Under the pieces are notes generated by a model. It had not been told where the DNA came from. It made no database searches and saw only the letters and a list, made by a program, of their open reading frames with translations. From positions 3,534,001 to 3,598,000 of the forward strand of contig NC_019673.1 in NCBI RefSeq assembly GCF_000328705.1: a stretch of 64,000 nucleotides of DNA, in the 5' to 3' direction. Both the position numbers and the translations under genes were made by a program. This DNA comes from Saccharothrix espanaensis DSM 44229 (lineage in GTDB: Bacteria; Actinomycetota; Actinomycetes; Mycobacteriales; Pseudonocardiaceae). Below, piece by piece: positions 11,535 to 32,479 of the stretch; within the stretch, counting starts at the first letter, position 1, and each line of letters opens with the position of its first letter.

Positions 11535-11551
11535 ACGCAGGAGAGACTCCA

Positions 11552-14500: not shown

Positions 14501-16252
14501 CGCAAGGCCTACGAGACCGGTCGCGGCGTGGTGCGGATGCGGGCCAAGGTGGAGACCGGGCTGCTGGAGGGCAGCCGGGGGCGGCAGGCGATCACGATCA
14601 CCGAGCTGCCCTACGGCGTCGGGCCGGAGAAGATCATCGAGAAGATCACCGACGAGGTGACCAAGTCCAAGCGGCTGACCGGGATCTCCGACGTCAAGGA
14701 CCTCACCGACCGGGAGAACGGCGTCCGGGTGGTCATCGAGTGCAAGGTGGGGGTCAACCCGCAGGCGCTGCTGGCCGACCTGTACCGGCTGACGCCGATG
14801 GAGCAGTCCTTCGGGATCAACAACCTGGTGCTGGTCGGCGGCCAGCCGCAGACGCTGGGCCTCAAGCGGCTGCTGGAGGTGTTCCTGGCGCACCGGTACG
14901 AGGTGGTCACCCGCCGCACCCGCTACCGGCGGCGCAAGCGCGAGGACCGGCTGCACCTGGTCGAGGGCCTGCTCAAGGCACTGCTCGACATCGACAAGGT
15001 GATCAAGCTGATCCGGGGCAGCGAGAACGCGCAGGCCGCCAAGGAGGGCCTGATGAAGTCGTTCGCGCTCTCCGAGGTGCAGGCCACCTACATCCTGGAC
15101 ACGCCGCTGCGCCGGCTGACCCGCTACGACGCGATCGAGCTGGAGGCCGAGCAGGAGCGGCTGCGCGGCGAGATCGCCGAGCTGTCGAAGATCCTCGACG
15201 ACGACCGCGAGCTGAAGAAGGTCGTGTCCGGGGAGCTGGCGAAGGTGGCCAAGGACCTCCAGCAGGAGCGCCGCACGGTGCTGCTGGACGGCGACCTCAA
15301 GGAGGTGCTGGCCGCCTCGAAGCCGGCCGGGCCGCTGGAGGTGGCCGACGACCCGTGCCAGGTGGTGCTCTCGGCGACCGGGCTGGTGGCGCGCACGGCG
15401 GCGGAGTCGGAGGAGGCCTCGGAGGCCCGCCGGCGCAACGGGCGGGTCAAGCACGACGCCGTGGCGGCGACGGTGCACACGACGGCGCGCGGCCAGGTCC
15501 TGCTGGTGACCAACCGGGGGCGGGCGTTCAAGACCGACGTGCTGCCGCTGCCGGTGTTGCCGGAGCAGAGCGGGACGGTGTCGCTCAGCGGCGGCATGGC
15601 GGCCAGTGAGCTGGTCGGCCTGGACAAGGGGGAGCGGGTGGTCGGCATCGCCCCGCTGTCGGACACCGGCTCGCCGGGGTTGGCGCTGGGCACGCGGCAG
15701 GGCGTGGTGAAGGTGTGCGCGCCGGAGTGGCCGGTGCGGTCGGACGAGTTCGAGGTGATCACCCTCAAGGAGGGTGACGAGGTGGTCGGCGCGTCCTGGC
15801 TGGGCAGCGCCGAGGAGACGTTGGTGTTCGTGTCGTCGGAGGCGTCGCTGCTGCGCTACAGCGCGTCGCTGGTCCGGCCGCAGGGGCTGCGCGGCGGCGG
15901 CATGGCGGGGATCACCCTGCCGGGCGAGGCGCACGCGGTGTTCTTCGGCGCGGTGCGGACCGACGACGACGAGCACGGCGAGCCGATGGTGGTGACCTCG
16001 ACGGGGCAGAGCGTGAAGGTGACGCCGTTCGCGGAGTACCCGGCGAAGGGCCGGGCGACCGGCGGGGTGCGCGCGCACCGGTTCCTCAAGGGCGAGACCG
16101 GGTTGGCGCTGGCGTGGGTCGGCCCGCGGCCGGCGGGCGCGGCGGACAACGGGTCGCCGGTGGAGCTGCCGGAGGTGGACGCGCGCCGGGACGGCTCGGG
16201 CCACGCCCACCCGGGCCCGGACGTGGTGGGTCACCTGGTCGAACGAGGCTGA
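11552..16252 (+). CDS. parC: DNA topoisomerase IV subunit A (GyrA/ParC family) with two inteins
   Basis: This is the DNA cleavage/religation subunit that pairs with ParE. The 1566-residue precursor starts at GTG 11552 after caggaga. Exteins show SYLEYAYSVIHSRALPDARD, the helix-turn-helix HRRILFSMNEQGHRPNSP, MGKYHPHGDTAIYDAMVRLA, VDGHGNFGS, the catalytic Tyr in AASRY, then TEARMSP and the conserved NLLVNGTSGIAVGMATNM. Inteins occupy residues 88-398 and 448-876, and the spliced product would be about 826 residues. The C-terminal beta-pinwheel lacks a QRRGGKG-type GyrA box, which favours ParC over GyrA. The last 70 residues are Gly/Ala/Asp-rich. The gene is in an operon with parE and is followed by a strong hairpin. 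Confidence 0.93.
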   Translation: MARRKTPTTRVDPSAFDRAGAQVFDNSLTTEIEDSYLEYAYSVIHSRALPDARDGLKPVHRRILFSMNEQGHRPNSPYVKSSRVVGDCFVRGALVSTPDGLRPIERIEVGDRVLDGAGRPVPVVETYRNPVSELVRVTWANGDAIRVTPGQRFRTGPDEWTDARDLAGRHTVAYGADRHATLVADGGDVEAYVLGLVAAAGVVEDGRVRLTLTDAEPLDSAHGWAIERDLTVSRDKYEADGVDHHVLTFAPDAALAAATTRTPVPVLSARARWTPFLAGLFDAAGHVHDGREIGFADLGDEVYAVLADAGLRAERSVDGLWVAGRHASALAAALLRWTKTRHEQLVEVIRSARAEDPAEPTSRCAVVSVEPVEPAETFDIQVGTDEHAFVVAGQVVHNCMGKYHPHGDTAIYDAMVRLAQDFSLNAPLVDGHGNFGSPDDGPAASRYCVVGDTRIRLADGASPRIADLVALPADAEADADFEVLDKDGKSVQVDKVFNSGVHPTIRMTTKSGFSLRGSENHLMLCLEAPMGVPLFQWRRLDELRPGAVVAVARNAWSQVVPTAREHMVGVLAGAWVSQGFANETRAGFNTTDEQFFTEVLHAYDQVVGGHRYVAERHTRQARELIRELDVQECAGGMDAFRASPLAEFIGHQARDKFVPEFVWNGGWGVKRAFLMAAFEGDGGCREADNSCTVEYSTYSEVLAGQVQELLAEFGVIAVHRSSRRPNGSVEHRLVVSGLRDVRAFAERVGFLKTKQAELSALLGHAPLNAHRPSSDHVPFVADYVRGALDFDRRGSGRKWLTTHDFDRVERWETDRLRIIDRISDTEVLATILPIMDSGYRFEAVSAVAADEPAEVYSVRVRSQDHSFLAGGFVNHNTEARMSPAAMLLVGELDEDTVDFRPNYDGSLQEPSVLPASFPNLLVNGTSGIAVGMATNMIPHNLGEVVAAARWLVTHPEASLDKLMEFIPGPDLPTGGVLLGLDEVRKAYETGRGVVRMRAKVETGLLEGSRGRQAITITELPYGVGPEKIIEKITDEVTKSKRLTGISDVKDLTDRENGVRVVIECKVGVNPQALLADLYRLTPMEQSFGINNLVLVGGQPQTLGLKRLLEVFLAHRYEVVTRRTRYRRRKREDRLHLVEGLLKALLDIDKVIKLIRGSENAQAAKEGLMKSFALSEVQATYILDTPLRRLTRYDAIELEAEQERLRGEIAELSKILDDDRELKKVVSGELAKVAKDLQQERRTVLLDGDLKEVLAASKPAGPLEVADDPCQVVLSATGLVARTAAESEEASEARRRNGRVKHDAVAATVHTTARGQVLLVTNRGRAFKTDVLPLPVLPEQSGTVSLSGGMAASELVGLDKGERVVGIAPLSDTGSPGLALGTRQGVVKVCAPEWPVRSDEFEVITLKEGDEVVGASWLGSAEETLVFVSSEASLLRYSASLVRPQGLRGGGMAGITLPGEAHAVFFGAVRTDDDEHGEPMVVTSTGQSVKVTPFAEYPAKGRATGGVRAHRFLKGETGLALAWVGPRPAGAADNGSPVELPEVDARRDGSGHAHPGPDVVGHLVERG
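11813..12745 (+). other. ParC intein 1, degenerate LAGLIDADG endonuclease
   Basis: This 311-residue insert after VVGD begins with Cys (CFVRGALVSTPDG), has block B around VTPGQRFRTG, and ends FVVAGQVVHN, with Cys as the +1 residue before MGKYHPHGD. Two degenerate LAGLIDADG motifs are visible: LGLVAAAGV near residue 193 and LAGLFDAAGH near residue 276 of the precursor. In both, the catalytic acidic residue before the final Gly is Ala. Splicing residues are complete, whereas the homing endonuclease looks dead. Confidence 0.9.
12893..14179 (+). other. ParC intein 2 at the active-site tyrosine, LAGLIDADG type
   Basis: A 429-residue insert directly after the catalytic Tyr (ASRY), starting CVVGDTRIRLADG and ending GGFVNHN with Thr as the +1 residue (TEARMSP). 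This is the same site as known mycobacterial GyrA inteins. The dodecapeptide motifs are LAGAWVSQGF near residue 569 and FLMAAFEGDGG near residue 673 of the precursor. The second keeps its acidic residue; the first has Gln where related inteins have Glu, so the endonuclease may be weakened. Confidence 0.92.
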
Positions 16253-16467: not shown

Positions 16468-16497
16468 TTGATAACGACTCTCATATTCAGTAAGTAT
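16468..16497 (+). promoter_or_regulatory. Promoter overlapped by a Fur-like box
   Basis: TTGATA (16468-16473) lies about 18 bp before AAGTAT (16492-16497). The stretch 16470-16488 (gataacgactctcatattc) matches 13 of 19 positions of the classical Fur consensus, by eye. It precedes a siderophore-type importer, which makes metal-dependent repression (Fur or Zur family) plausible. Confidence 0.5.
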
Positions 16498-16529
16498 GGC
16501 ACCCTCACCCGCACGAGTGAAGGGCGCCC

Positions 16530-17288
16530 ATGATCACCGCAGGATTGGCCTCGGTCACCTTCCGGGGCAGGCCGGTCGACCACGTCGTCGGTCTCGCCGC
16601 CGACGCCGGGTTGGGGGTGGTCGAGTGGGCCGGTGACGCCCACGTCCCGCCCGGCGACCTCACCGGCGCGGCCCGCGCCGCCCGGCTGTGCCGGGACCGC
16701 GGGCTGGCCGTCGGCACCTACGGCTCCTACTACAAGCCCGGCCACAGCGACCCGGCCGACTTCGGGCCCGTGCTGGCCGCCGCCGAAGCCCTGGGCGCGC
16801 CCCGGATCCGGGTCTGGGCGGGCGTGAAGGCCTCCGCCGACGTCGCGCCGGCCGAGCGCGGGGCGATCACCGACGACCTGCGCCGCTGCGTCGAGCTGGC
16901 CGCCGCGCGCGGCCTGGCGGTCACCGCCGAGCACCACGTCTGTTCGCTGACCGACGAGCTCGGCTCGGCCGTGCGGCTGCTGGCCGAGGTCGACCTGGTC
17001 GCGCACTGGCAGCCGCGCGAGTCGCCGGACGTCGCGGTGTGCCTGAGCGAGGTCGCCGCGCTGCTGCCCCGGCTGGCCGCCGTGCACGCGTTCTCGTGGG
17101 GTGCGGACGGGTTCACCGAGCGGCTGCCGCTGGCCGCCCGCGCCGACCTCTGGCAGCCGGTGCTCGCGGTGCTGGCCCAGGACGGGCGCGACCGCGACGT
17201 GCTGCTGGAGTTCGTGCCCGACGACTCGCCCGAGGCGTTCCACCGCGACGCCGCCACCCTGCTGTCCTGGCTGGAGAACGCCCGATGA
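16530..17288 (+). CDS. Xylose isomerase-like TIM-barrel protein
   Basis: A 252-residue protein of the sugar phosphate isomerase/epimerase (AP endonuclease 2) fold, beginning MITAGLASVTFRGRPVDHVV and containing the barrel strands GVVEWAGDAHV, GTYGSYYKPG, RIRVWAG, TAEHHVCSLTDE, LVAHWQPRE and VHAFSWG. Metal-binding positions typical of the fold (Glu33 of VEW, Glu/His of AEHH, His of AHW, His of VHAFSW) can be seen. The ATG at 16530 is the first gene of an operon that continues by ATGA overlap into a siderophore-type binding protein. The reaction is unknown. In this setting it could act on the metallophore or its precursor, much as other TIM-barrel enzymes work in peptide-chelator pathways; that is inference. 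Confidence 0.75.
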   Translation: MITAGLASVTFRGRPVDHVVGLAADAGLGVVEWAGDAHVPPGDLTGAARAARLCRDRGLAVGTYGSYYKPGHSDPADFGPVLAAAEALGAPRIRVWAGVKASADVAPAERGAITDDLRRCVELAAARGLAVTAEHHVCSLTDELGSAVRLLAEVDLVAHWQPRESPDVAVCLSEVAALLPRLAAVHAFSWGADGFTERLPLAARADLWQPVLAVLAQDGRDRDVLLEFVPDDSPEAFHRDAATLLSWLENAR

Positions 17289-18259
17289 CCAAGCTCGTCC
17301 CCGTCGCCCTCGCCGCCGTCGCGCTGCTCGGCGCGTGCACGCCGGCACCCGCCGCCCAGGAACCCGCGAAGGCCACCGAGGTGGTGCGCACCGCCGCGCC
17401 GCTGGAGAACGCGCTGAGCGTCACCGACCCGCACGGGCAGCGGATCACGCTGACCAAGCCCGCCGAGCGGATCGTCTGCCTCAACGGCCTGTGCGACGAC
17501 ATCGCCGCCGACCTCGGCCTGACCCCGGTCGGCACCACCAACCCGGTGCTGATCAGCCACCCCGCCCTGCTCGGTGACGCGGGCAAGGCCGTCCCGGTGG
17601 TGCCCGGCACGTTCGGCGGCGAGGACGTCGAGGCGATCGCCGGGTTCAGGCCCGACCTGGTGATCGGCCTGCCCGGCGTGCACGACGCGCTGCGGCCCGC
17701 CATCGAGAAGTTCGCCCCGCTGTGGACGGCCGAGCCCGCCACCTGGGAGGAGTCCGTCGGCTACCTGCGGGCGCTGGGGTCGCTGACCGGGCGCGCCGAC
17801 CGGGCCGTCCGGGCGGAGGAGGAGTTCCGGGGCCGGCTCGCCGACGCGGTCGCCCGCAGCCACGCCGGTCCCCAGGCGGCCAGGAAGGTGCTGCTGATGT
17901 ACGGCAGCGTCGACGCGATCGGCGTCGACACCACCACCTCGCTCAAGGGGCACCTGCTCGGGCAGTTGTTCGACTACCCGTTCCCGGCCAAGGGGACCGA
18001 TGTCGACACCGCGAGCAACTACAGCGTCGAGGAGCTCCTCGCCCGGCAGCCCGACGTCGTTTTCGTGTACTCACTGCTGTTCTCCGCCGACGACAAGACC
18101 TTGAGCAGCCAGTTGGGCGACAACCCGGTGTGGCAGCAGATCCCGGCCGTGCGGCAGCAGCGGGTGTTCGAGATGCACGCCAAGCTGTGGGGTTCCGGGC
18201 GCGGGCTGCGCAGCCTCGCGGCGGTGGTGGACGAAGCTCTCGCCAAGGTCCCCGCTTGA
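17285..18259 (+). CDS. Siderophore-type ABC transporter substrate-binding lipoprotein
   Basis: This 324-residue protein begins with a lipoprotein signal (lipobox LLGAC, Cys18) and has the two-lobed FecB/BtuF-like fold: RITLTKPAERIVCLNGLCDDI, FRPDLVIGLPGVHDAL, and DVVFVYSLLFSADD near the C-terminus. It would capture a metal-chelate outside the membrane and pass it to the two permeases encoded directly downstream. The ATG at 17285 overlaps the TIM-barrel gene stop. The unusual VCLNGLCDD pair of cysteines near residues 63-68 is worth noting for a metal-chelate binder. The specific ligand cannot be read from sequence. Confidence 0.88.
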   Translation: MTKLVPVALAAVALLGACTPAPAAQEPAKATEVVRTAAPLENALSVTDPHGQRITLTKPAERIVCLNGLCDDIAADLGLTPVGTTNPVLISHPALLGDAGKAVPVVPGTFGGEDVEAIAGFRPDLVIGLPGVHDALRPAIEKFAPLWTAEPATWEESVGYLRALGSLTGRADRAVRAEEEFRGRLADAVARSHAGPQAARKVLLMYGSVDAIGVDTTTSLKGHLLGQLFDYPFPAKGTDVDTASNYSVEELLARQPDVVFVYSLLFSADDKTLSSQLGDNPVWQQIPAVRQQRVFEMHAKLWGSGRGLRSLAAVVDEALAKVPA

Positions 18260-19164
18260 GGCTGCTCGCGGCTGTCGCCGTGGTGGCCGTCCTCGGCTCG
18301 CTGATGCTGGGGCAGCCGGTCGTGCTGTTCACCGGCACCGAGTTGGAGCACGTCGTCGTCTGGCAGCTCCGCGCACCCCGGCTGTTGCTCGGCGCGGTCG
18401 CCGGCGCGTGCCTGGGGACCGCGGGCCTGCTGTTGCAGGAGTCGCTGCGCAACCCGTTGGCGGTGCCGGAGCTGCTGGGCGTGTCCAGCGGCGCGGCGGC
18501 GGCCGTGGGGACGAGCGTCGCGTTCGGGATCGCGCTGCCCTTCGCGCCGCTCACCCCGGCGTTGCTCGGCGCGGCGGTCGGCGGCGGTCTGACGTTGCTG
18601 GCGGTGCGCGGTGCGACGGGGCCGGCGGCCGTGCTGCTGATCGGGGCGGCGGTCGGGTCGGCGTGCCAGGCGGTGATGCTGGCCGCCACCGCGATGACCG
18701 ACTCGCGGGAGCAGGGCGTGCTGGTGCGCTACCTGCTCGGGTCGCTGACCGGTACGACGTGGCGCACCCTCGGTCCGGTCGCGGTGGGCCTGGCGCTGGC
18801 CGTGCCGGCGGTGCTGTTCGTGCTGCCCCGGGTGCGGGTGCTGCGACTGGGCGACGACGAGGCGATGTCGGCGGGCCTGCGTCCCGGCCGGGTCCGGATG
18901 GCCGTGCTCGGGGTGGCGTCGCTGCTGGTCGCCGTGGTGGTCGGGCCGGCCGGTCCGGTGGCCTGGGTGGGGTTCTTCGCACCCCGCCTGGCCGCCCGGC
19001 TCGGCCGGCCCTCGCTCGCGGTGACGGCGCTGGTCGGTGCTGTCGTGGTGGTGGTCGCCGACCTCGTCGCGCGGACCGCGCTGCACCCGGTCGAGCTGCC
19101 GGTGGGCGGGCTGACCGCGCTCGCGGCGGTCGCGGTCGGGCTGCTGGTGCGGAGGCGCGCGTGA
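18256..19164 (+). CDS. FecCD-family ABC transporter permease, first subunit
   Basis: A 302-residue integral membrane protein of the FecCD/BtuC family. It has the family segments WQLRAPRLLLGAVAGACLGT, GLLLQESLRNPLAVPELLGV, and RLGDDEAMSAGLRPGRVR before the late helices. About nine or ten membrane helices are apparent. I start it at the TTG at 18256, which overlaps the preceding TGA stop (TTGA); an alternative GTG lies a few codons downstream. It overlaps the next permease by GTGA. It would form a heterodimeric channel with that permease. Confidence 0.88.
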   Translation: MRLLAAVAVVAVLGSLMLGQPVVLFTGTELEHVVVWQLRAPRLLLGAVAGACLGTAGLLLQESLRNPLAVPELLGVSSGAAAAVGTSVAFGIALPFAPLTPALLGAAVGGGLTLLAVRGATGPAAVLLIGAAVGSACQAVMLAATAMTDSREQGVLVRYLLGSLTGTTWRTLGPVAVGLALAVPAVLFVLPRVRVLRLGDDEAMSAGLRPGRVRMAVLGVASLLVAVVVGPAGPVAWVGFFAPRLAARLGRPSLAVTALVGAVVVVVADLVARTALHPVELPVGGLTALAAVAVGLLVRRRA

Positions 19165-20102
19165 ACCGCGTCGGTCGCCGGCTCGGCGGCCTGGTCGCGG
19201 TCGTGGTGGTGTGCGCGTTGGCCCAGGTCAGCGTCGGCTCGACGGGGGCCACGCTCGGCGCGCTGTTCGGCGAGGACTGGCACGCCCGGATGGTCGTGCT
19301 GGAGCTGCGGGCGCCGCGCGTGCTCGTCGGGCTGTGCGCGGGCGCGTGCCTGGGCGTGGCCGGGACGATCCTCCAGTCCGCGATCCGCAACCAGCTCGCG
19401 TCGCCGGAGATCACCGGCGTCGGCTCGGGAGCGGTGCTCGGCGCGGTGCTGGCGACCGTGGCCGGCGCGTCCCAGCCGGTGCCGATGGCCGCCGCCGCGC
19501 TGGTCGGCGGGGTGCTCGGCGGTGGTGTGCTGTGGGTGGTGGCCGGTCGGTCCGGTGACGTCGCGGTGCGCGGCGTGGTCGTGTCGGCGGTGCTGGTCGG
19601 GACCACGCTCGTGCTGCTGACCGCGCGGCCCCAATTGGCGGGCGCGGTGTCGCGGTGGCTGCTCGGGTCGCTGGTCGGCCGCACGTGGGAGCACCTCGCG
19701 CCGCTGTGGCCGGTGCTGCTGGTGGTCCTGGTGGCCGCGACGCTGCTCGGCGGCGTGCTCGACGTGCTCGCCGTGGACGACGACCACGCGCACGCGGTCG
19801 GCCTGGCGGTCGTGCCGTGGCGCAGCGGGGTGCTGGTCCTGGCGGCGCTGGCGACGTCGGCGGCGGTGGCGGCGATGGGCGCGACCGCGTTCGTCGGCCT
19901 GCTCGCGCCGCACCTGGCGCGCCGGCTGGTCGGCGCGGTCCACCGCGACGCGGTGCCGGCCGCCGCGCTGACCGGAGCGGCGTCGGTCGCGGCGGCGGAC
20001 ACGGTGGGGCAGTTGGCGCACGTGCCGGCGGGAGCGATCACGGCGTTGCTCGGCGCGGGTGTGCTGATCGTGGTGGCGCGGAGAACAGGAGGGATCGGGT
20101 GA
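19161..20102 (+). CDS. FecCD-family ABC transporter permease, second subunit
   Basis: A 313-residue membrane protein paralogous to the preceding gene: RAPRVLVGLCAGACLGVAGT, ILQSAIRNQLASPEITGVGS, and the coupling segment near VDDDHAHAVGLAVVPWR. Starts at GTG 19161 in a GTGA overlap with the previous gene and ends in a GTGA overlap with the ATPase gene. The four genes 17285-20890 form a complete metal-chelate importer. Confidence 0.88.
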   Translation: MNRVGRRLGGLVAVVVVCALAQVSVGSTGATLGALFGEDWHARMVVLELRAPRVLVGLCAGACLGVAGTILQSAIRNQLASPEITGVGSGAVLGAVLATVAGASQPVPMAAAALVGGVLGGGVLWVVAGRSGDVAVRGVVVSAVLVGTTLVLLTARPQLAGAVSRWLLGSLVGRTWEHLAPLWPVLLVVLVAATLLGGVLDVLAVDDDHAHAVGLAVVPWRSGVLVLAALATSAAVAAMGATAFVGLLAPHLARRLVGAVHRDAVPAAALTGAASVAAADTVGQLAHVPAGAITALLGAGVLIVVARRTGGIG

Positions 20103-20890
20103 CACCACTGCTGTCCCCGCTGCGCGCCGAGGGCGTGCGCGTGCGGTTCGGCGACAACGAGGTGCTCAAGGGCGTGGACCTGGCCGTGGGGGCGGGGGAG
20201 TGGCTGAGCCTGCTGGGGCAGAACGGCAGCGGCAAGACGACGTTGCTGCGCGTGCTGGCGGGCCTGCTCGAACCGTCCCGCGGTGCCGTGCTGCTCGACG
20301 GCGGACCGCTCGAAGCGTTGTCGCGCCGGGACATCGCGCGCCGGATCGCGTTGCTGCCGCAGACGACCCCGTACGTCCACGGGCTCACCGTGCGCCAGTT
20401 CGTGCGCCAGGGTCGTTACGCGGCAAGGGGTCCGCTGGGGATGCTCGGCGAGTCCGACGACGAGCAGGTGCGGGCGGCGTTGCGGGACACCGGGGTCGCG
20501 GAGTGGGCGGACACGCCGCTGGAACGGCTGTCCGGCGGTCAGCGCCAGCGCGTCCGGCTGGCCCTCGCGCTGGCCCAGGACGCGCCGGTGCTGCTGCTCG
20601 ACGAGCCCACGACGTTCCTGGACATCCGGCACCAGATCGACGTGCTGAACCTCGTACGGGCGCTGCAGCGGGAGCGCGGGCTGACCGTCGTGGCGGTGCT
20701 GCACGACCTCGCGCAGGCCGCGCGGTACTCGGATCGTGTTGTGGCGCTTCGGGAAGGTGTCGTGCACGCGGACGGCGCGCCGTCCGAAGTGGTCGACGCG
20801 GCGTTGCTGCGCGAGGTCTACGGCGTCGCCGGCGAAGTGCTGTGGATCACCACCAACGGGGTATTGAAAATGGTTGTCGTTCCAGATTAG
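20099..20890 (+). CDS. Siderophore-type ABC transporter ATP-binding protein
   Basis: The 263-residue ATPase shows Walker A GQNGSGKTT, the Q-loop LLPQTTPYVHG, the signature LSGGQRQRV, Walker B VLLLDEPTTFLD and the switch His in AVLHDLAQAARYSDR, which is characteristic of FecE-type subunits. The start is GTG 20099, coupled to the permease. The gene ends 49 bp before the precursor peptide gene on the same strand. A TTAGGTT half-site (20887-20893) spans the stop codon, but no second half is convincing. Confidence 0.9.
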   Translation: MTPLLSPLRAEGVRVRFGDNEVLKGVDLAVGAGEWLSLLGQNGSGKTTLLRVLAGLLEPSRGAVLLDGGPLEALSRRDIARRIALLPQTTPYVHGLTVRQFVRQGRYAARGPLGMLGESDDEQVRAALRDTGVAEWADTPLERLSGGQRQRVRLALALAQDAPVLLLDEPTTFLDIRHQIDVLNLVRALQRERGLTVVAVLHDLAQAARYSDRVVALREGVVHADGAPSEVVDAALLREVYGVAGEVLWITTNGVLKMVVVPD

Positions 20891-20939
20891 GTTGGTGGAG
20901 GTCGATCCGACCGCAACCCACGAATGAGAGGAACGTCCC

Positions 20940-21050
20940 ATGGAGCAGGTCTTCGTGAGCGTCGAGGCCGAGCGCGAGCTGCCGCACAACTCCGCCAGCC
21001 ACAGCAACGCCCTGGTGGAGAACCCGTTCGACGGCGGCGACGACGAGTGA
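20940..21050 (+). CDS. Candidate RiPP precursor peptide
   Basis: A 36-codon gene with a strong ribosome-binding site (gagagg, 8 bp before ATG 20940). The peptide begins MEQVFVSVEAERELP, continues HNSASHSNALVEN and ends PFDGGDDE. Serines 18, 20 and 22 alternate around Ala19 and His21, with no Cys or Thr. YcaO, E1-like and SagB-type genes follow at once, so the serines are the likely substrates (oxazoline, then oxazole). The acidic C-terminal tail and the internal core suggest that residues after about 23 could be removed as a follower. A perfect hairpin begins 7 bp after the stop. No homolog is known to me; the assignment rests on position, size and neighbours. Confidence 0.75.
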   Translation: MEQVFVSVEAERELPHNSASHSNALVENPFDGGDDE

Positions 21051-21056
21051 CCCACT

Positions 21057-21085
21057 CCGGGGCCGCCGTCCGGCGGCGGCCCCGG
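21057..21085 (+). terminator. Perfect hairpin between precursor and modification genes
   Basis: A 12-bp perfect stem (ccggggccgccg / cggcggccccgg) with loop tccgg, directly after the precursor stop. No T-run follows. It likely works as a partial terminator or mRNA-end stabiliser that gives more precursor than enzyme transcript, as in many RiPP operons. Confidence 0.75.
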
Positions 21086-21111
21086 ACCCCTTCCCGGCCC
21101 TGGAGGACCGC

Positions 21112-21891
21112 GTGGAAACCCTGAAGCCCGGCACGGCGCTGTTCACCGGACCGTCCGGCGCGGTCCTGCGGGACGCGGCCGGCGAGCTGTTCGCCGTCGC
21201 GCTGTCCGACGAGGCGGTCGGCGGCGTCCGCGCGGCCCTGACCCGGGCCGACGCGCCGGTCCCGCCGGAGCTCTCGGCGTTCGACCGCGCCGGGCACCTG
21301 GGCCGGCGGGCGAGCTGGCCGGTCGACCGGCGCACGGTCGCCGTGCTCGCCGGGCCCGGCGCCGCCTTGGTCGACGCGCTGCGCCTGGCCGGCGCGAACC
21401 CGGTTGTGCTGCCGGGGGAAACCGGTCTGGACGAGCTGCTGGAGCGGCGCCCGGCGGCGGTCTGCGGGTGGCACGACGGCCCGGCCCCCGACCGGTGGCT
21501 CGACCTCGACCCGCTGGCCGGGCATGGCATCGGCTGGCAGCGGATCAGCCGCGAGGGCCGGCACGTGCTGCTGGAGCCGATCGGCGTGTCCCACCGGGAC
21601 GTCCGCGCCCGCCGGCTCGCCGCTGCCGGCTCCGGCCACCGCCACCTGCGGGCCTACTGGGCCGGGGAGAACGCCGTGCTCGGCGACGAGACCCCGGACC
21701 CGGCCGAGCTCCTGCTGGTCGCCGCGCTCGCCGTGAAGGACCTCGCCCGGTGGGCCGCCGACCTGCCGGTCACCCGCAACTCGCTGACCCCGGACGCGAT
21801 CCCGGCGCACCGCCGGCTGCGCGTCCTCGACCTGGACACCGGCGCGCTGGCCGACCACCCGGTGCTCCCGGTGCCCGCCAGTGCCCCGTGA
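21112..21891 (+). CDS. E1-like/RRE partner protein of a YcaO cyclodehydratase
   Basis: A 259-residue protein resembling azoline-peptide ThiF-like (ocin-ThiF, C/F-protein) partners. Residues 1-45 (LKPGTALFTGPSGAVLRDAA, then SDEAVGGVRAAL) have the winged-helix outline of a RiPP recognition element. The middle (VAVLAGPGAALVDALRLAG) is the Rossmann-like part, and GRHVLLEPIGVSHRDVRARR matches the late family segment, which normally precedes CxxC; no CxxC remains here. It would bind the precursor and hand it to YcaO. The GTG start at 21112 follows a ggagg site, and the gene overlaps the hydrolase gene by 11 bp. Divergence is considerable, so the family call is moderately sure. Confidence 0.6.
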   Translation: METLKPGTALFTGPSGAVLRDAAGELFAVALSDEAVGGVRAALTRADAPVPPELSAFDRAGHLGRRASWPVDRRTVAVLAGPGAALVDALRLAGANPVVLPGETGLDELLERRPAAVCGWHDGPAPDRWLDLDPLAGHGIGWQRISREGRHVLLEPIGVSHRDVRARRLAAAGSGHRHLRAYWAGENAVLGDETPDPAELLLVAALAVKDLARWAADLPVTRNSLTPDAIPAHRRLRVLDLDTGALADHPVLPVPASAP

Positions 21892-23230
21892 GTTCACCGT
21901 GGCGGGGTTGGCGCACACCCTCGTCGCGGCCGACCCGGACGCCCCGCTGGTGCTCATCCGCACCCCCTACGGGCGGCACCACCACCTCGCCGAGGCCGAG
22001 GCGTGGCGGCGGCGCGGGTTCTCCTGCGTCGTCGGCGACGTGCGCGGCCGGCACGGCTCGGCCGGCCGCTTCCGGCCCTACCGGGACGAGGCCGACGACG
22101 GCGCGACGGTCGTGGACGCGGTGCGGCGGCTGGGTTTCCGCCGGATCATCACGGCCGGCGCGTCCTACGCGGCGTACTGCGCGGTGACCGCCGCCATCGT
22201 CGCGCCGGACGCCGTGGTCGGCGTGCTGGCCGCCGTCCCCGCGCTCGGGCTGGGCGAGACCGCCCGCGAACCCGGCGGCGCGGCCCGGCTGGCCTGCCGG
22301 GTCGGCTGGTGGGGCGAGCACGCGGCCACCGCCGTGTCCGCCGACCTCGCCGCGACCCCGGTGGTCGACCTGGTGACCGGCTGGGACGACCTGTGGACCG
22401 CGCCCGAGCGCACCGGCGAACTCTGGGACGCGTTGCCCCGCTTGAGGATGCCGCTGCTCGCGGTCGGCGGTCTGCACGACCCGTTCGCCGCCGACACCGA
22501 ACGGCTGGCGCGCGGCTGGGGCGGACCCACCCGGCTCGTCCTGGGTCCGTGGGCGCACGCGCTCGACGCCGCCGAACCCGGCGCGGCCCTGGCCGGCCGG
22601 CGGATCGGCGCGCTCTACCTGGCGTGGGCCAGGGCGTTGGACAACCTGAAGGGGGACAAGGTCTTCTACGCCGTCGACGGCTGGCGGCGGCAGACCGCGT
22701 CGGCCGTCCCGGTCGACCTGGAGGTGGTCCGGGCCGAGTTCCGCGCCGACCCGGCCCGCCCGTTCCGGTCGGTGCCGCCGGGCGCGCCGATCACCGACGA
22801 CCCGAGCGGCGTGCTGCTCACCCCGCCGCTGCCCGGCGGCGAACTGCGCGGCGCGGCCACCGTGCTGCTCGACGCGGTGGCCGACGTGCCCGACGCGGAC
22901 TGGGTGGTCCGGCTGTCCCACGACGGGATCCACCTCGCGCACGCGGTCACCCGGGTCCGGCACCGGCCCGGCGTGCCCCGGCGGGTCGTGCTCGACCTCC
23001 CGCCGGTCGGCCGGTCGCTGCCCGAGGGCACCCGGCTGCGGCTGGAGGTCGCCGGGCACCACTTCCCCCGGCACGCCCGCAACCCGCACACCGGCGAGGA
23101 CCCCGTGCGGGCCGCCGCGCTGCACCCCAGCCACCGGGCCGTGCGGCACGCCCGCGCCCGGATCCCCTGGCACCCCACCGGTTCCGGCGAGGTCCGGGCC
23201 GCCGACCTACCCGAGGAGATTGCATCGTGA
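21881..23230 (+). CDS. CocE/NonD-type alpha/beta hydrolase (S15-like)
   Basis: A 449-residue enzyme. The N-terminal alpha/beta hydrolase domain has VLIRTPYGRHHH, CVVGDVRGRHGS and the nucleophile motif AGASYAAY (Ser in GxSxx), with later acid GGLHDPFA and His in LGPWAHAL. The C-terminal region from about residue 265 looks like the jelly-roll domain of the X-Pro dipeptidyl peptidase/cocaine esterase family (DWVVRLSHDGIHLAH, RVVLDLPPVG). Relatives cleave peptides or esters. Inside a RiPP operon it is the best candidate for removing the leader or acidic tail, or for ester/amide tailoring. GTG 21881 overlaps the previous gene, and the stop overlaps the YcaO start. Confidence 0.8.
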   Translation: MPREFTVAGLAHTLVAADPDAPLVLIRTPYGRHHHLAEAEAWRRRGFSCVVGDVRGRHGSAGRFRPYRDEADDGATVVDAVRRLGFRRIITAGASYAAYCAVTAAIVAPDAVVGVLAAVPALGLGETAREPGGAARLACRVGWWGEHAATAVSADLAATPVVDLVTGWDDLWTAPERTGELWDALPRLRMPLLAVGGLHDPFAADTERLARGWGGPTRLVLGPWAHALDAAEPGAALAGRRIGALYLAWARALDNLKGDKVFYAVDGWRRQTASAVPVDLEVVRAEFRADPARPFRSVPPGAPITDDPSGVLLTPPLPGGELRGAATVLLDAVADVPDADWVVRLSHDGIHLAHAVTRVRHRPGVPRRVVLDLPPVGRSLPEGTRLRLEVAGHHFPRHARNPHTGEDPVRAAALHPSHRAVRHARARIPWHPTGSGEVRAADLPEEIAS

Positions 23231-24516
23231 CCGCGCCGCTGCTGGTGGACCCGCTGACCGGGATCGTGCGCAGGCTGGTCGACGTCGAGGCGGTGCCCGG
23301 CGCGCCGCGCCGCTACCGGGCCGTCACCGCCGAGGTGGCCGACGCCCGGCGGCTGGGCGCGTGGCCCGCCGACCGGGTCAGCCTGGGCACGACCTTCGGC
23401 GACGTGGACGCGGCCCGCGCGGCGGCGGTCGGCGAGGCCGTCGAGCGCTACTGCGGCAACCGGGTCGCGCCTGGCCTGCGCAGGGCGAGCGCCGATGAAC
23501 TGAAAGCGGCCGGAATCCCGCATTTCGGCCCGGCCGACCTGCCGTTCTTCACCGCCCGGCAACACGCCACCCGGGGTTTCCCGTATCGACCGTTCACCGG
23601 TGATGTGCCGATCGCGTGGGTGGAAGGCGAGGAATCAGGTGAAATATGCCTCCTTCCCGCTTCGTGGGCGTATCTGAACTACCACTCCGGCGAACGCAGA
23701 ACCGAACCCCGGCTGCACCACCTGAACTACGCCGGTATCGCCACCGGCGTCAGCACCGAGGACGCGTTCACCCGCGCCCTGCTCGAACTCGTCGAGCGCG
23801 ACGCCCTGGAGCGGTGGTGGCACCTGGGCGCGCCGACGACCGGCATCGCCGTGGACGACGTCCCCGGCCTGGCCGCCGAACTCGCCGACTGCCCGCTGGA
23901 GGTGCACCTGGTGGAACTGCCCACCGAGCACCCGGTGTCGTGCGTCGGCGCGGTCGTGGTGGACCGGACCACCGGCATCGTCGCCGGCGGGGGAGCGGCC
24001 CGGTTCGACCCCGTCGAGGCGTGCACCAAGGCCGTGCTGGAGGCCGTGCACACCTGGATCTTCACCCAGGGCCTGCTGGAGGCCGACGGGTGGGTGTTCC
24101 GCTCGATCGAGGCCGGGATCCTCGCGCGCGGCCTGTACCTGCCGCACCGCGCCGACCGGCGCTACCGCGACGACGCAGGCGCCGAGTACGCCGAGGTGCG
24201 CGACCTGGGCGCGCAGGTGCAGGTCTGGCTGGACCCCCGGGTGCAGGCGGAGTTGTTGCCCCGCTTCACCCGGCCCGAGCGGATGACGAGACCGCAAACG
24301 CGCGGAGATCTCCCCGCGCTGCGCGAAAGCCTGGCGGGCAACCGGATCGCGACGGTCGACCTGACCACCGAGGACGTCGCCGAGGCCGGCCTGCGGGTGG
24401 TGCGGGTGTGCGCGACCGGTCTGGTGCCCAACGCGCCCGCCGCGTTCCGCTACCTGGGCCTGCCGCGCTGGGGCGACCCGGCGTCGGTGCTGCTCGACCC
24501 GCCGCCGTTCCTGTGA
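23227..24516 (+). CDS. YcaO-domain cyclodehydratase
   Basis: A 429-residue YcaO protein. The unusual ATP site of the family is visible: ARAAAVGEAVERYCGNR near residue 65, TEDAFTRALLELVERDALER near residue 180, and DPVEACTKAVLEAVHTW near residue 262, giving the conserved Glu/Arg set. The C-terminus is Pro-rich (LLDPPPFL), as in azoline-forming members that end PxPxP. It would phosphorylate the amide backbone of the precursor to close Ser-derived oxazolines, together with the E1-like protein. It starts at GTG 23227 (GTGA overlap) and overlaps the dehydrogenase gene at 24513. Confidence 0.9.
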   Translation: MTAPLLVDPLTGIVRRLVDVEAVPGAPRRYRAVTAEVADARRLGAWPADRVSLGTTFGDVDAARAAAVGEAVERYCGNRVAPGLRRASADELKAAGIPHFGPADLPFFTARQHATRGFPYRPFTGDVPIAWVEGEESGEICLLPASWAYLNYHSGERRTEPRLHHLNYAGIATGVSTEDAFTRALLELVERDALERWWHLGAPTTGIAVDDVPGLAAELADCPLEVHLVELPTEHPVSCVGAVVVDRTTGIVAGGGAARFDPVEACTKAVLEAVHTWIFTQGLLEADGWVFRSIEAGILARGLYLPHRADRRYRDDAGAEYAEVRDLGAQVQVWLDPRVQAELLPRFTRPERMTRPQTRGDLPALRESLAGNRIATVDLTTEDVAEAGLRVVRVCATGLVPNAPAAFRYLGLPRWGDPASVLLDPPPFL

Positions 24517-25124
24517 TCACCCTGCCCGAGCCGGAGGAACCGGCGATGACGCTGGCGGAGGCGTTGCTGTCCCGCCGGTCGCGCTACTCCTATGGGCCGT
24601 TGAGCCGACTGGAGCTGGGTTCGCTGCTGCACTACGCGGTCGGCGTGCAGCGCCGCGTCCACGCGGACGTCCCGGGCGTCCAGCACGTCCTGGGCACCAA
24701 CCCCACCGCCGGCGGCCTGCCGTCGCTGCGCGTCCACGTCGTGCTGGACGGCGACGTCTTCGAGTACCTGCGCGAGCCGCACGCGTTGTGCCCGACCGGA
24801 ACCACCGACCTGGCCGGGGTGTTCGCCCAGGAGGAGTTCGCCCGCCGGGCCCGCGCCGTGATCGTCCTAACCGGACGGATGGGGCCGGGGCTGGCGAAAT
24901 ACGGTCCTCGGCATTACCGCACCGCGCACCTGGACGCGGGCGTCGCGGTGCAGAACCTGTACCTGGTGGCGACCGCCCTGGGGCTGAGCTGCTGCGCCGT
25001 CGCCGGATTCGCCGACGACGCGGTGAAAGCCCTTGTCAGGGGTGGAGAACAGGACGTGGCGCTGGCCCTGTTCGTGGTCGGCGGATCGATCCCACCGGCA
25101 TCCGGGCATAAGAAGTGTCCATAA
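24513..25124 (+). CDS. SagB-type FMN-dependent azoline dehydrogenase
   Basis: A 203-residue nitroreductase-fold protein: LLSRRSRYSYGPLS at the FMN-binding start, NPTAGGLPSLRVHVVL, YRTAHLDAGVAVQNLYLVAT and LGLSCCAVAGFADDAV are the hallmarks of SagB/McbC-type enzymes that oxidise azolines to azoles. It is shorter than McbC-type proteins because it lacks their N-terminal extension. GTG 24513 overlaps the YcaO stop. Its presence implies that at least some rings become aromatic. It is the last gene of the modification operon. Confidence 0.88.
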   Translation: MITLPEPEEPAMTLAEALLSRRSRYSYGPLSRLELGSLLHYAVGVQRRVHADVPGVQHVLGTNPTAGGLPSLRVHVVLDGDVFEYLREPHALCPTGTTDLAGVFAQEEFARRARAVIVLTGRMGPGLAKYGPRHYRTAHLDAGVAVQNLYLVATALGLSCCAVAGFADDAVKALVRGGEQDVALALFVVGGSIPPASGHKKCP

Positions 25125-25184
25125 GGCCATTCCCCCCGAACGATCCGCGCAATACCGTTGTGCGGGCAGCAAGGGGGAGTTGCT

Positions 25185-26105
25185 ATGGACACAGCGAGAA
25201 CGGACACATTCGCCGGGGCCTTACGGGCCGCCATCGCGGAGCGCGGGCTGGGACTGGAACGCATCCGCGAGCACCTCGCGCAGCACGGGGTGAAGGTCAG
25301 CCTGGCGACGTTGAGCTACTGGCAGTCGGGCCGCAGCAGGCCCGAACGCCGCTCGTCACTGGCCGCCATCGGCCACCTGGAGGAGATCCTCGCCCTGCCC
25401 ACCGGCTACCTGGCCGGTCTGCTGGGCCCGCCCCGGCCGCGCGGCCGGTGGCTCAAGCGGGTACCCGACCAGCCGGTCCCGATCAGCACGCTCTGGTCGG
25501 ACCCGGACGAGGTGGACTGGGCCATCCGGCAGGTCGACACGAGCTGGGACGCCCGGCTGACCAGGCTGAGCCAGCACGACTTCGTCACCGTCGGCCCGGA
25601 TCGCGGTGAGCGCGGCATCCGGTCGCGGCACGTGCTGCGGGCGGAGGCGGACGGCGCGGACCGCTGGGTGGTCGTCGTGCACGTCGACGAGCGCGACCGG
25701 CCGCTGCCGCTGCTGCGCCCGTTGCGGCACTGCACGGTGGGCCGGTTGGTCGCCCAGCCCGCCGCCGGGCTGGTGGTCGCCGAGCTGCTGTTCGACCGGG
25801 CGCTGCGGTACGGCGACAGCATCGTCATCGAGCACGAACTGGTGAACCGGCCGCCGTACCCGGTCGCCACCGAGTGCGGGCGGAAATTCCGGCTGCCGGT
25901 GCGCGAATACGTGTTGGAGGTCGCGTTCGACCCGTTGGCCCGGCCGGTGGAATGCAAGTCGTACCGAAATACCGGCGGCCCGGACGAGGACGTTCGGCCG
26001 GTGGAAATGGACGCCGGCGGGTCGTTGCTCGGGGTCGCGCTCGATTTCGGTCCGGGCGGCTACGGATTCCGCTGGAAATGGCCTAGCCCGCATCACCGGA
26101 GCTAG
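25185..26105 (+). CDS. Helix-turn-helix regulator with large C-terminal domain
   Basis: A 306-residue protein with ATG 25185 behind aagggggag. Residues 8-80 form an XRE-like helix-turn-helix (LRAAIAERGLGLERIREHLA, then SLATLSYWQSGRSRPERRSS). The remaining 220 residues are beta-rich (VVVHVDERDRPLPLLRPL, GRLVAQPAAGLVVAELLF) and could be a ligand-sensing domain; I do not recognise it. It follows the dehydrogenase gene by 60 bp and overlaps the convergent MFS gene by 23 bp. It is the likely local regulator of the RiPP locus. Confidence 0.75.
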   Translation: MDTARTDTFAGALRAAIAERGLGLERIREHLAQHGVKVSLATLSYWQSGRSRPERRSSLAAIGHLEEILALPTGYLAGLLGPPRPRGRWLKRVPDQPVPISTLWSDPDEVDWAIRQVDTSWDARLTRLSQHDFVTVGPDRGERGIRSRHVLRAEADGADRWVVVVHVDERDRPLPLLRPLRHCTVGRLVAQPAAGLVVAELLFDRALRYGDSIVIEHELVNRPPYPVATECGRKFRLPVREYVLEVAFDPLARPVECKSYRNTGGPDEDVRPVEMDAGGSLLGVALDFGPGGYGFRWKWPSPHHRS

Positions 26106-27318
26106 CCGCGCGGCGCAGCGTCGGGGTCGCCCAGGCCAGGGCGACCCCGACCAGCAGCACGCCGGTGCCGGCCGCCAGCCCGGCGCGCGGCCCGGCGAGC
26201 ACCGCCGCCGCGCCCGCGAGCGCCGCGCCCGCGGGCTGCCCGAGACCCCACGAGAGCATCCGGGCCGTCGTGTTCACCCGGGACCGGAGTTCGGGCGGGC
26301 ACATCCGCTGGCGGTAGGTGATGGAGTTGAGCACGACGGTGGAGTGCGCCGCGCCCCAGGCGATCGCGCCCAGGCAGGCCGGCACCCAATGCGTGCTCAG
26401 CAGCACCGAACCCGCGCACAGCAACGACACCGGCAGCCCGCCCAGCGCGAGCCGTGCCCCGCCCCACCGCTCGGTGAGCGCGGGCAGCAGCCGGGAGGCG
26501 AGCCACGCGCCCGCGCCCCAGCAGCCGAACAGCACCGCCAAGCGCAGGTCCCCGGACGGGGCGACGCCGAGCACCCGGTCCGCCCACGGGACCATCATCG
26601 CCACCCAGGCGCCGGCGGCGGCCGAGTGCGTCGCGCCGACCAGGGTCAGCGTGCGGATGATGCTGTGCTGCCACAGGAAGCGCAACCCGGTGCCGATGTC
26701 GCCGGCGACGGTGGTGGAGTCGGTGCGCGGGGTGGACAGCGCGCCCCGGATCGCCCGGACCAGCATCGCCGACCCGGCGGCGGTCACCGCGTTGACGGCG
26801 AGCAGGGTGGCCGGGGCCACGACCGTGACCGCCGCGCCGGCCAGCGCGGGCAGGACGGTTTCCAGGATCGTGCTGCGGCCGAACAGCTTGGCGTAGGCGG
26901 AGGTGATGTTCTCCTTGCCCACCAACGAAGGCAGCGCGCCGAAGTTGGCGGCGTCGAAGAACGCGAACGCGCTCTGCACCAGGAACGCCACCACCACGAC
27001 GTGCAGGGCGGTCAGCGCGTCGAGCCACCACGCCACCGGGACGGTCACCATCGCGACCGCCACCACGACGTCCATCGCCACCATCAACCGCTGCCGGTCC
27101 ACCCGGTCGGCGACCGCGCCGGCGAGGAGCCCGAACACCAGGTACGGCAACGCTTCCGCCATCGCGACGGCCGCCGTCCACGCGGTGGAGCCGGTGAGCT
27201 GGTAGACCAGCACCGGCAGCGCGACGACCGCGACGATGCTGCCGGCCACGGACAGCAGCCGGGCGTTCAGGTAGCGCCGAAAATCGCGCGCGGGCGCGTC
27301 GAGGGTCACGGTCACCAC
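26083..27318 (-). CDS. MFS transporter, candidate RiPP exporter
   Basis: A 411-residue major facilitator protein with twelve predicted helices. It contains the loop 2-3 motif GAVADRVDRQRLM and the usual repeats of drug-exporter members (MFS_3/enterobactin exporter-like, by pattern). It starts at GTG 27318 (a second GTG follows immediately) and ends inside the convergent regulator gene. It lies next to the RiPP operon, and the importer genes would serve uptake only, so this is the best candidate for export of the product. The sequence upstream of the start is AT-rich (catgctaatgaatgccat) and may hold its promoter. Confidence 0.8.
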   Translation of the reverse strand: MVTVTLDAPARDFRRYLNARLLSVAGSIVAVVALPVLVYQLTGSTAWTAAVAMAEALPYLVFGLLAGAVADRVDRQRLMVAMDVVVAVAMVTVPVAWWLDALTALHVVVVAFLVQSAFAFFDAANFGALPSLVGKENITSAYAKLFGRSTILETVLPALAGAAVTVVAPATLLAVNAVTAAGSAMLVRAIRGALSTPRTDSTTVAGDIGTGLRFLWQHSIIRTLTLVGATHSAAAGAWVAMMVPWADRVLGVAPSGDLRLAVLFGCWGAGAWLASRLLPALTERWGGARLALGGLPVSLLCAGSVLLSTHWVPACLGAIAWGAAHSTVVLNSITYRQRMCPPELRSRVNTTARMLSWGLGQPAGAALAGAAAVLAGPRAGLAAGTGVLLVGVALAWATPTLRRAASSGDAG

Positions 27319-27574
27319 ATCATGCTAATGAATGCCATGTTCATCTAACAACCCGCCCCGTCCCGCACCGACCCTCGTCCAGCCCAGACCTGCGCCACGT
27401 GGCGTTGGCGGACCAGGTCGCTGCGGGCGATCACCCCGCACTGGCAGCGCAGCCGGCCGGTCCACCGGATTCGAGGGGATGGCCGGCACGCGCGTGCCGG
27501 TCGGGAACCCTTCCACGGCAAGGCGTCCGCCGGTCGCGAGGCCCACCCGGACGGTGCCGGGCGGGCCTCTGCGG

Positions 27575-28159
27575 TCACGGGCGGTGGAGGAGCTGCTCGA
27601 ACGGCACCACGTCGGCGAACTCGTCGGCGGGCCTGGCGGGCGCACGGCCCGCCAGCACGCCGGCGAGTTCGGCCGCCGCGCGGTCGACGCGGTCGGACAG
27701 GCCCTGCGGCGAGCCCCAGTCGGCGGACGCCGCGTAGACCGCGGTCGGCACCACGGCCGCCCGCAGGTAGGCGAACAGCGGGCGCAGCGCGAAGTCCAGC
27801 ACCAGGGAGTGCCGCTCGGTGCCGCCGGTCGCGCCGATCAGCACCGGCTTGCCGACCAGCGAGTCCGGCTCCAGCACGTCGAAGAACGACTTGAACAGGC
27901 CGCTGTAGGACGCGTTGAACGTCGGCGTGACGGCGACCAGCGCGTCCGCGCCGACCACGTCGTCCACGATCGCCTTCAACCGGGCGCTGGGGAACCCGGC
28001 GACGAGGTTGTCGGCGATGTCCCGCGCCACGTCGCGCAGGTGCACCGACCGCACGGTGACCGGCGCGAGCGCGCCGACCCCGGCGGCGAGCCGGTCGGCC
28101 AGCAGGTGGCTGGACGACGGCTCGCCGAGACCGGCGGACACCACGGCGAGCGTGGTCAT
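27575..28159 (-). CDS. NAD(P)H-dependent FMN reductase (CE1759-like)
   Basis: A 194-residue flavodoxin-like reductase: TTLAVVSAGLGEPSSSHLLA at the phosphate-binding loop, VAVTPTFNASYSGLFKSFFD around the flavin and PVLIGATGGTERHSLVLD follow the family of FMN reductases paired with luciferase-like monooxygenases. ATG 28159 overlaps the monooxygenase stop (ATGA). It would supply reduced FMN to the upstream enzyme. About 250 bp to the MFS gene hold no other gene. Confidence 0.88.
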   Translation of the reverse strand: MTTLAVVSAGLGEPSSSHLLADRLAAGVGALAPVTVRSVHLRDVARDIADNLVAGFPSARLKAIVDDVVGADALVAVTPTFNASYSGLFKSFFDVLEPDSLVGKPVLIGATGGTERHSLVLDFALRPLFAYLRAAVVPTAVYAASADWGSPQGLSDRVDRAAAELAGVLAGRAPARPADEFADVVPFEQLLHRP

Positions 28160-29229: not shown

Positions 29230-29247
29230 AGCCGCTCCTCGATCCAA

Positions 29248-31581: not shown

Positions 31582-31721
31582 ATCTCCAGCGGCGCCGGGT
31601 GTTCTCTGCTGTAGCCGACAGGCGGCAGGGGCCGCCCGGCGTCGCCGGCTGTGTTGCGCACCGGCCAGCCTGAACAGGCCTGATAGGAGCTTGGTCCGGA
31701 GCCGTTCATCAAGACCATGTC

Positions 31722-32340
31722 CTACATGGTGGCTTTGAGGAAACGCTTCCAACAGGGCAGGGCCGCAGCCAAGCCCAGGAAGGCCAGGTAGTTGAAGGGA
31801 TGCCGTTCGTAGCAGGGCGAGAGGCGGCGGTAGCCGGTCAGCCAGGACATGGTGCGTTCGATGGCCCAACGGTGACGACCCAGGCGTTGGGAGGACTCGA
31901 CGCCCTTGCGGGCGATACGGACTCCGATCCGCTTGCCGCGTAGCCATCGCCGCAGCTCGGCGGTGCCGTATGCCTTGTCGACGTGCAGTTTGCGAGGCTT
32001 GCCGTGACGGCTGCGGACGGGATCGTGCCGCGAGAGCAGACCCGCCACCATCGGCTTCAGACCGTCGGCGTCAACGACGTTGCCACGTGAGATGCCGACC
32101 ACGAGCGGCATTCCCGAACGGTCCGACAGGACATGCAACTCGTACCCGCCTTGCCCCGGTCCACAGGACTCGGACCCGTGTGCCCGCCCCCTTTTCGCCC
32201 TCACGTGCGCGGTGTCCAGCAGCACGCGGGACAGATCGACCAGCCCCGCTCCGGTCATTCTCGCCGGCACCGCGCGATGCAGACGGGCCCACACCCCCGC
32301 CCCGGCCCAGATCGCGAACCGGCGATGCACCGTCGGTGTC
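31722..32340 (-). pseudogene. Truncated IS5-family transposase
   Basis: Only the C-terminal two thirds of an IS5 (IS427-group-like) DDE transposase remain: TVHRRFAIWAGAGVWARLHR, then DTAHVRAKRGR, the KLHVDKAYGTAELRRWLRGK block and the RHRWAIERTMSWLTGYRRLS block with its Glu. The N-terminal helix-turn-helix part is missing. At about 32340 the sequence switches to an unrelated minus-strand frame (PAEEWDLHSFWVNDTPMVHG, to about 32460) that is itself a remnant. No terminal repeats are seen. Confidence 0.8.
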
Positions 32341-32479
32341 GGCGGCCGTGTCGGCGACGAAGGGGTTGCCGTGGACCATCGGCGTGTCGTTGACCCAGAA
32401 GCTGTGCAGGTCCCACTCCTCGGCCGGCACGGAGAGGTCCTCGACACCGGGTTGTGCTCGGGTCGCGGGCAGCGGTGGT

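Follow-up and report, generated by a model that had tools for sequence, protein, structure and literature searches.

Described Streptamidine Clusters and the Locus of Saccharothrix espanaensis

Streptamidine, a ribosomally synthesized and post-translationally modified peptide (RiPP), is the product of the ami cluster of Streptomyces albidoflavus J1074 and was characterized as an HLSATH hexapeptide with a six-membered amidine ring (PMC8442711). Russell et al. (2021) reported the order amiF1-F4, A, B, C, D, E in more than 90 clusters and streptamidine-type clusters in more than 230 species, with a function not known and with metal import suspected. The present analysis concerns a cluster of Saccharothrix espanaensis DSM 44229, located between positions 16,468 and 27,318 of a stretch of 64,000 nucleotides (contig NC_019673.1, positions 3,534,001 to 3,598,000), which is designated as the window. 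The genome of the host is one contig of 9.36 Mb. The cluster family is known, and what is new is its predicted placement in the zinc-starvation regulon, controlled by the repressor Zur.

Two other known systems are comparable with the one proposed here. Methanobactin resembles it as a RiPP metallophore with export and re-import and differs in its metal, which is copper, in its MbnB/C enzymes and in its TonB-type uptake. In Streptomyces coelicolor, PMC5472717 describes coelibactin biosynthesis as likewise Zur-controlled in an actinomycete, beside znuABC and cysteine-less ribosomal paralogs, all of which are repressed by Zn-Zur. Coelibactin is described as non-ribosomal (PMC3430247), in contrast to the gene-encoded, YcaO-modified peptide of the window.

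The sequence leaves little doubt that the window contains a streptamidine-type RiPP cluster and thus a member of the described family. Its precursor AmiA matches the NCBIfam model for streptamidine family RiPPs well above the cut-off (Table 1), and FecBCDE-like importer genes stand upstream of the precursor gene and are followed by amiA-B-C-D-E, as in the published order. An earlier note on this DNA had reported the genes, their coordinates and stop/start overlaps, the 36-residue peptide and an operator, and all of these were confirmed. Its statement that no cluster with this order had been described is wrong, since the ami order is published (PMC8442711) and the precursor matches NF040714. 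The note had also proposed azole-forming enzymes; an amidine is to be expected instead, as the characterized relative streptamidine has a six-membered amidine ring.

The window cluster and the J1074 cluster have in common the FecBCDE-type importer, the H-x-S-A-[ST]-H core, AmiB, a hydrolase, a standalone YcaO protein and a dehydrogenase, in equal order (PMC8442711). The core is HNSASH in the window and HLSATH in streptamidine. At the amiX position, the window has an AsbF-like TIM barrel gene, whereas Streptomyces loci have a beta-propeller gene, which we would guess to be the amiX of PMC8442711. As for transport, the window has one major facilitator superfamily (MFS) gene, with no ABC exporter pair seen adjoining, and the gene just downstream from amiE is extra relative to the published J1074 cluster. 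The exporter of the earlier note is present as an MFS gene, presumed to be an exporter, but it is convergent to the ami genes and the extra gene lies between it and amiE. Overlaps of 4 nt are found at X/F1, F1/F2, F2/F3, F3/F4, C/D and D/E; the B/C overlap is 11 nt long.

Distribution among Relatives

Loci were collected from named contigs (15), from 150 genomes of the same family (21 with AmiD at E ≤ 1e-60, the host included), from 396 genomes of the phylum (4, the host included) and from 295 genomes of a genus taken as Streptomyces (38 at 1e-80). Genes in the fetched surroundings were mapped by tblastn. The gene order recurs in relatives, more than chance would allow, and importer and YcaO genes co-occur across genera: of the 69 loci with AmiD, some of them on cut contigs, 57 yielded a homologue of AmiF1. 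The note's reading of the locus, in which RiPP genes are paired with a chelate-type importer and an operator of the metal type, is supported, and the co-occurrence is what the note had named beforehand as the point to check.

By identity (86% and 85%) and in a tree of AmiD, the closest AmiD relatives among the loci fetched are from Saccharothrix. Six other genomes of the genus (G021, G059, G088, G110, G127 and G143) gave no AmiD match at 1e-60, and the cluster is therefore patchy even in close kin. One genome of 3.5 Mb (G288) has three near-identical ami-type YcaO genes (L039, L041 and L042), two of them near opposite ends of a 69.6-kb contig. A streptamidine-family cluster was also found on a linear plasmid, pNit of Rhodococcus rhodochrous (L186), with a strong Zur-type box before amiA.

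Zur-Type Operators at the ami Promoters

The Zur box of S. coelicolor is a 7-1-7 palindrome, tGaNNatSatNNtCa (PMC5472717). In the host genome, the strict consensus TGANAAYGRTTNTCA had no match, and a looser consensus pattern matched 16 sites, compared with 8 for a reversed control; two of the 16 are at ami promoters, one is inside amiE and one is at the promoter of the ribosomal L28 gene. Pattern matches alone therefore prove little, and a trained motif was used. A dyad search from random starts was run on the DNA that precedes the best-matching L28 homologue in 31 genomes, the host included, and yielded the motif TGRnAAYGRTTnYCA. In the part that was read, these L28 homologues contain one or two Cys; ami promoters were kept out of the training. 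A site was held by 30 of the 31 training promoters, the exception being L164 (-2.8 bits).

The motif was scanned over the 200 nt upstream of each ami gene with a threshold of 10 bits. Sites precede 52 of 57 importer operons and 62 of 66 amiA genes, while the control positions F2, F3, F4, amiC and amiD gave 2/63, 2/64, 0/67, 0/68 and 0/68. When the loci were thinned to a single one for each group at 85% AmiD identity, the counts were 21/25 for the importer and 29/30 for amiA, and 1/29, 1/29, 0/29, 0/31 and 0/31 for the same controls. MFS promoters held a site in 16 of 20 cases. Column-permuted motifs reached the threshold in a mean of 0.5 of the 57 and 0.8 of the 66 regions; the best permutation reached up to 33 and 51, presumably by swaps of like columns. 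Final counts leave out L065, L066 and L069 (no amiA found and no site of at least 14 bits), L120 (taken as a duplicate of L035) and the importer row of L028 (contig edge); L068 and L070, copies in one genome, are both counted.

In the window, the two boxes at the ami promoters are the only sites of at least 12 bits in 64 kb. The amiA box begins 75 nt ahead of the start of amiA and is identical at 14 of 15 bases to a box at the L28/MRF promoter of the same genome. This promoter lies between the L28-L33-S14-S18 and the COG0523-L31-L32 genes and contains two boxes (16.5 and 16.8 bits; in the training set); the COG0523 GTPase matches the MRF model NF047431 above its cut-off, and the gene neighbours were assigned by Pfam. 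A 16.8-bit box also lies 49 nt ahead of the znuA gene of the host, which was not used for training. Out of sample, pNit has a single 22.0-bit site 94 bases before the amiA annotated as a streptamidine family RiPP, a score reached by none of 50 mononucleotide shuffles of 25 kb. The box that the earlier note called Fur-like is thus real, but it is of the zinc (Zur) type and not of the iron type, and a second, stronger box is added to it. Three Fur-family genes were found in the host genome. One of them (121 bits) adjoins an ArsR-like gene, as judged by eye, and another is next to a catalase gene; in mycobacteria, zur adjoins an ArsR-like gene.

These promoter sequences make it highly probable that the ami operators are of the zinc type and that the cluster is under Zur control. 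Such control is new for streptamidine-type clusters, and the earlier suspicion of metal import had no supporting assay result. By title or the start of the abstract, the literature searched, supplements not covered, held no report of Zur control of streptamidine clusters, papers naming both Zur and YcaO are by title on E. coli or modelling, and the word Zur does not occur in the main text of PMC8442711.

Linkage to Zinc-Starvation Genes

Of the 38 Streptomyces genomes with the cluster, 16 have the L28 gene at most 16 kb from amiD, where about 0.15 of 38 is expected by random placement (our own estimate, taking 32 kb in about 8 Mb). The limit of 16 kb was chosen after the distances (5.5 to 15 kb) were known; two of the 38 genomes have no L28 match, and drafts with L28 and ami genes on different contigs were scored as unlinked. 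Several of the linked loci also have S14, L31, L32 or COG0523 homologues. On the AmiD tree (66 rows, 34 labelled, 16 linked; four unlinked genomes with cut or duplicate loci omitted), at least 9 changes of linkage state are required, or 5 if starred branches alone are counted, whereas shuffled labels need 11.5-11.7 changes on average. The linkage is therefore not one inherited event. In Actinokineospora pegani (L025), a gene for an MRF-type COG0523 GTPase and amiX are divergently oriented and separated by two boxes; the MRF match of this GTPase, at 305 bits, is below the cut-off of 375.

The beta-propeller gene has its own or a shared box of at least 10 bits in 51 of 53 loci holding it, with one locus counted twice. 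These YncE-like genes accompany many ami clusters, for example at L026:12891-14201 and L037:1756-3003, both on the minus strand and both with a Zur-type box, and the form in Allokutzneria combines a leader-like N-terminus with a His-rich loop. A zinc chaperone (AztD-like) identity was considered for the propellers of Streptomyces and Allokutzneria and rejected, as no sequence match supported it. No propeller homologue was found in the host genome by a search run without a positive control.

Precursor and Modification Enzymes

The predicted core HNSASH of AmiA lies between ELP and SNALVENPF. All 66 precursors collected have L-[PA]-H-x-S-A-[ST]-H-SNALVENPF, a motif favoured by the sampling, as they were retrieved by similarity to the peptide of the window. 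The cores are HLSATH in 21, HNSASH in 19, HDSASH in 16 and others in 10, and the residue ahead of the first His is Ala in 46 and Pro in 20. The SNALVENPF follower is invariant (66/66), which may point to a different or longer active product or to recognition by the enzymes. By analogy with streptamidine, the product of the window cluster would be the hexapeptide HNSASH with an amidine ring, or a longer form of it.

The biosynthetic roles proposed for the ami enzymes rest on published gene deletions in J1074 (PMC8442711). In AmiC, S95, D200 and H226 show at least 97% conservation among 61 aligned sequences, and an S15-type peptidase with conserved Ser, Asp and His would fit the removal of the leader after Pro or Ala. 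For AmiB, the E1-like protein of the earlier note, neither an E1-like domain nor a RiPP recognition element was matched in Pfam or NCBIfam, and a 43-row profile found no PDB match with an E-value of 1 or less; with Phyre2, AmiB was reported to match TruD (PMC8442711). The AmiE profile matched 11 of 73 loci, namely its 6 source loci with at least 300 bits and 5 others with 28-31 bits, and the AmiE type of the window is therefore limited to few relatives. Residues 5-159 of the TIM barrel match AsbF (PDB 3dx5) with a profile E-value of 3.6e-14, and a homologue is found in 11 of 69 loci. AsbF has a role in petrobactin synthesis, and an AsbF-like catechol route is only a lead, as the match spans residues 5-159. 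In AmiF1, a Cys pair (C65 and C70) and His133 show at least 97% conservation among 57 sequences and are possible contacts for a metal or a complex.

Proposed Function and Alternatives

Family membership, the conserved order, the Zur-type boxes and the linkage to zinc-starvation genes are read from sequence, and they suggest the following scheme. With ample zinc, Zn-Zur would occupy the boxes ahead of the importer operon and of amiA and repress both. When zinc is short, repression would be lifted and the precursor would be made; AmiB and AmiD, with AmiE, would cyclize it, and AmiC would cut off the leader after ELP. The MFS protein would export the peptide, which would capture zinc, most likely via His1 and His6 and the amidine, and AmiF1-F4 would retrieve the zinc-peptide complex. 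It is fairly likely that the cluster is a zinc-starvation system of this kind, with Zur repression, export, zinc capture and re-uptake. The role of the peptide as a zincophore, taken by itself, is given close to an even chance. The generalization that streptamidine-type peptides are ribosomally made zincophores, that is, a widespread actinobacterial system with a Zur-derepressed, YcaO-built amidine hexapeptide, two His and FecBCDE-type retrieval, is more tentative, with the odds somewhat against it. If the product is a zincophore, it would be, to our knowledge, the first RiPP zincophore. Placement in the Zur regulon names the expression condition and the metal to test in a family of unknown function, and would explain the importer.

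Several observations weigh against this scheme. The threshold was not reached by 5 of 57 importer, 4 of 66 amiA and 4 of 20 MFS promoters, the window's own MFS promoter (8.6 bits) being among the latter. On pNit, no site of at least 10 bits precedes the importer genes, and the second-best site (13.0 bits) is inside the YcaO gene. Linkage to L28 was found in none of 17 same-family genomes examined and is also absent in the host. As far as the accessible text of PMC8442711 goes, streptamidine showed no detectable binding of Zn(II) or six other metals by liquid chromatography-mass spectrometry (LC-MS) and no signal in the chrome azurol S (CAS) assay, and an amiD mutant had no phenotype under metal starvation. 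In the same text, J1074 and a heterologous host produced streptamidine, with zinc depletion not mentioned, and amiE was essential, yet streptamidine is not oxidized. Since the essential amiE leaves no trace in streptamidine, the true or active product may be different or longer. Solvents for LC-MS are usually acidic, and the published zinc negatives may be explained by acidic LC-MS, by a redundant ZnuABC or by a degraded or different product.

One alternative keeps Zur control and drops the zincophore: the peptide would be a signal or weapon in zinc shortage, and AmiF1-F4 would import a cue or confer immunity. The follower found in every precursor suits this alternative, as chelation of zinc by the hexapeptide alone does not require it, but importers of the FecBCDE type usually carry metal chelates. 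The lack of metal binding and of a starvation phenotype also agrees with it, and a role in signalling or development was proposed by the authors of PMC8442711; streptamidine, however, had no antibacterial or antifungal activity in that report. This alternative is rather unlikely.

It is improbable that the importer acts as a metal importer in its own right, with the RiPP either uninvolved or acting as an intracellular cofactor or as a chaperone. The importer and RiPP genes do have separate boxes, and 12 of 69 loci, some because of cut contigs, gave no AmiF1 homologue. Against it, deletion of amiF1-F4 abolished streptamidine and deletion of the exporter genes lowered production (PMC8442711), and 20 loci keep an MFS gene beside the cluster.

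The Fur-like appearance of the box, the FecB- and FecE-type matches and the AsbF-like TIM barrel might suggest a siderophore system controlled by Fur and iron. This is very improbable, since the box agrees with those at zinc-regulon promoters of the host, no IdeR-type box was found (the best candidate for an IdeR/DmdR box agreed with the consensus at 12 of 19 positions across 135 upstream regions), one Fur-family gene adjoins an ArsR-like gene and another a catalase gene, as described above, and the CAS assay of streptamidine was negative (PMC8442711).

Features of the Cluster and Neighbouring Genes

Table 1. Genes and predicted operators of the streptamidine-type cluster (positions in the window).
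Feature	Position	Strand	Evidence
AsbF-like xylose-isomerase-type TIM barrel, amiX position	16530..17288	+	PF01261; profile match to PDB 3dx5 AsbF
AmiF1, FecB-type substrate-binding lipoprotein	17285..18259	+	PF01497 (Peripla_BP_2); PDB matches are FecB and siderophore-binding proteins
AmiF2, FecCD permease	18256..19164	+	PF01032
AmiF3, FecCD permease	19161..20102	+	PF01032
AmiF4, FecE-type ABC ATPase	20099..20890	+	PF00005; FecE is the top NCBIfam match (248 bits, below cut-off 375)
AmiA, 36-aa streptamidine-family precursor MEQVFVSVEAERELPHNSASHSNALVENPFDGGDDE	20940..21050	+	NF040714, 65.4 bits, cut-off 40
AmiB, presumed YcaO partner protein	21112..21891	+	no Pfam, NCBIfam or PDB match; homologue in 66/69 loci
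AmiC, CocE/S15 serine peptidase, presumed leader removal	21881..23230	+	PF02129, PF08530
AmiD, YcaO cyclodehydratase	23227..24516	+	PF02624; SagD-type model, 206.2 bits, below cut-off 219.25
AmiE, SagB-like flavin dehydrogenase (nitroreductase)	24513..25124	+	PF00881; TIGR03605, 77.0 bits, below cut-off 78.4
Possible helix-turn-helix regulator (N-terminus, by eye)	25158..26105	+	no Pfam match
MFS protein, presumed exporter	26083..27318	-	PF05977, PF07690
Zur-type 7-1-7 operator TGATAACGACTCTCA upstream of importer operon	16469..16483	.	14.2 bits, motif trained on L28 promoters
Zur-type operator TGAAAATGGTTGTCG before amiA, inside the 3' end of amiF4	20865..20879	.	17.3 bits
Weak Zur-like site before the MFS gene	27323..27337	.	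8.6 bits, under the threshold of 10

Outside the window, the possible regulator gene was matched in L023 and L024 alone among 73 mapped loci. An MFS homologue of at least 50% identity is present in 20 loci, the window counted.

Just past the MFS gene, overlapping genes for a luciferase-like monooxygenase and an NADPH-dependent FMN reductase (Pfam) lie on the minus strand at 27575-29247 of the window. Farther downstream from the cluster, positions 30511-33170 contain genes for a CrtC/lipocalin-like protein and for a DDE transposase. Upstream, a topoisomerase IV/gyrase A-like frame at 10346-16252 contains two apparent inteins, recognized by eye from starts with CFVRG and CVVGD and from HN before C or T.

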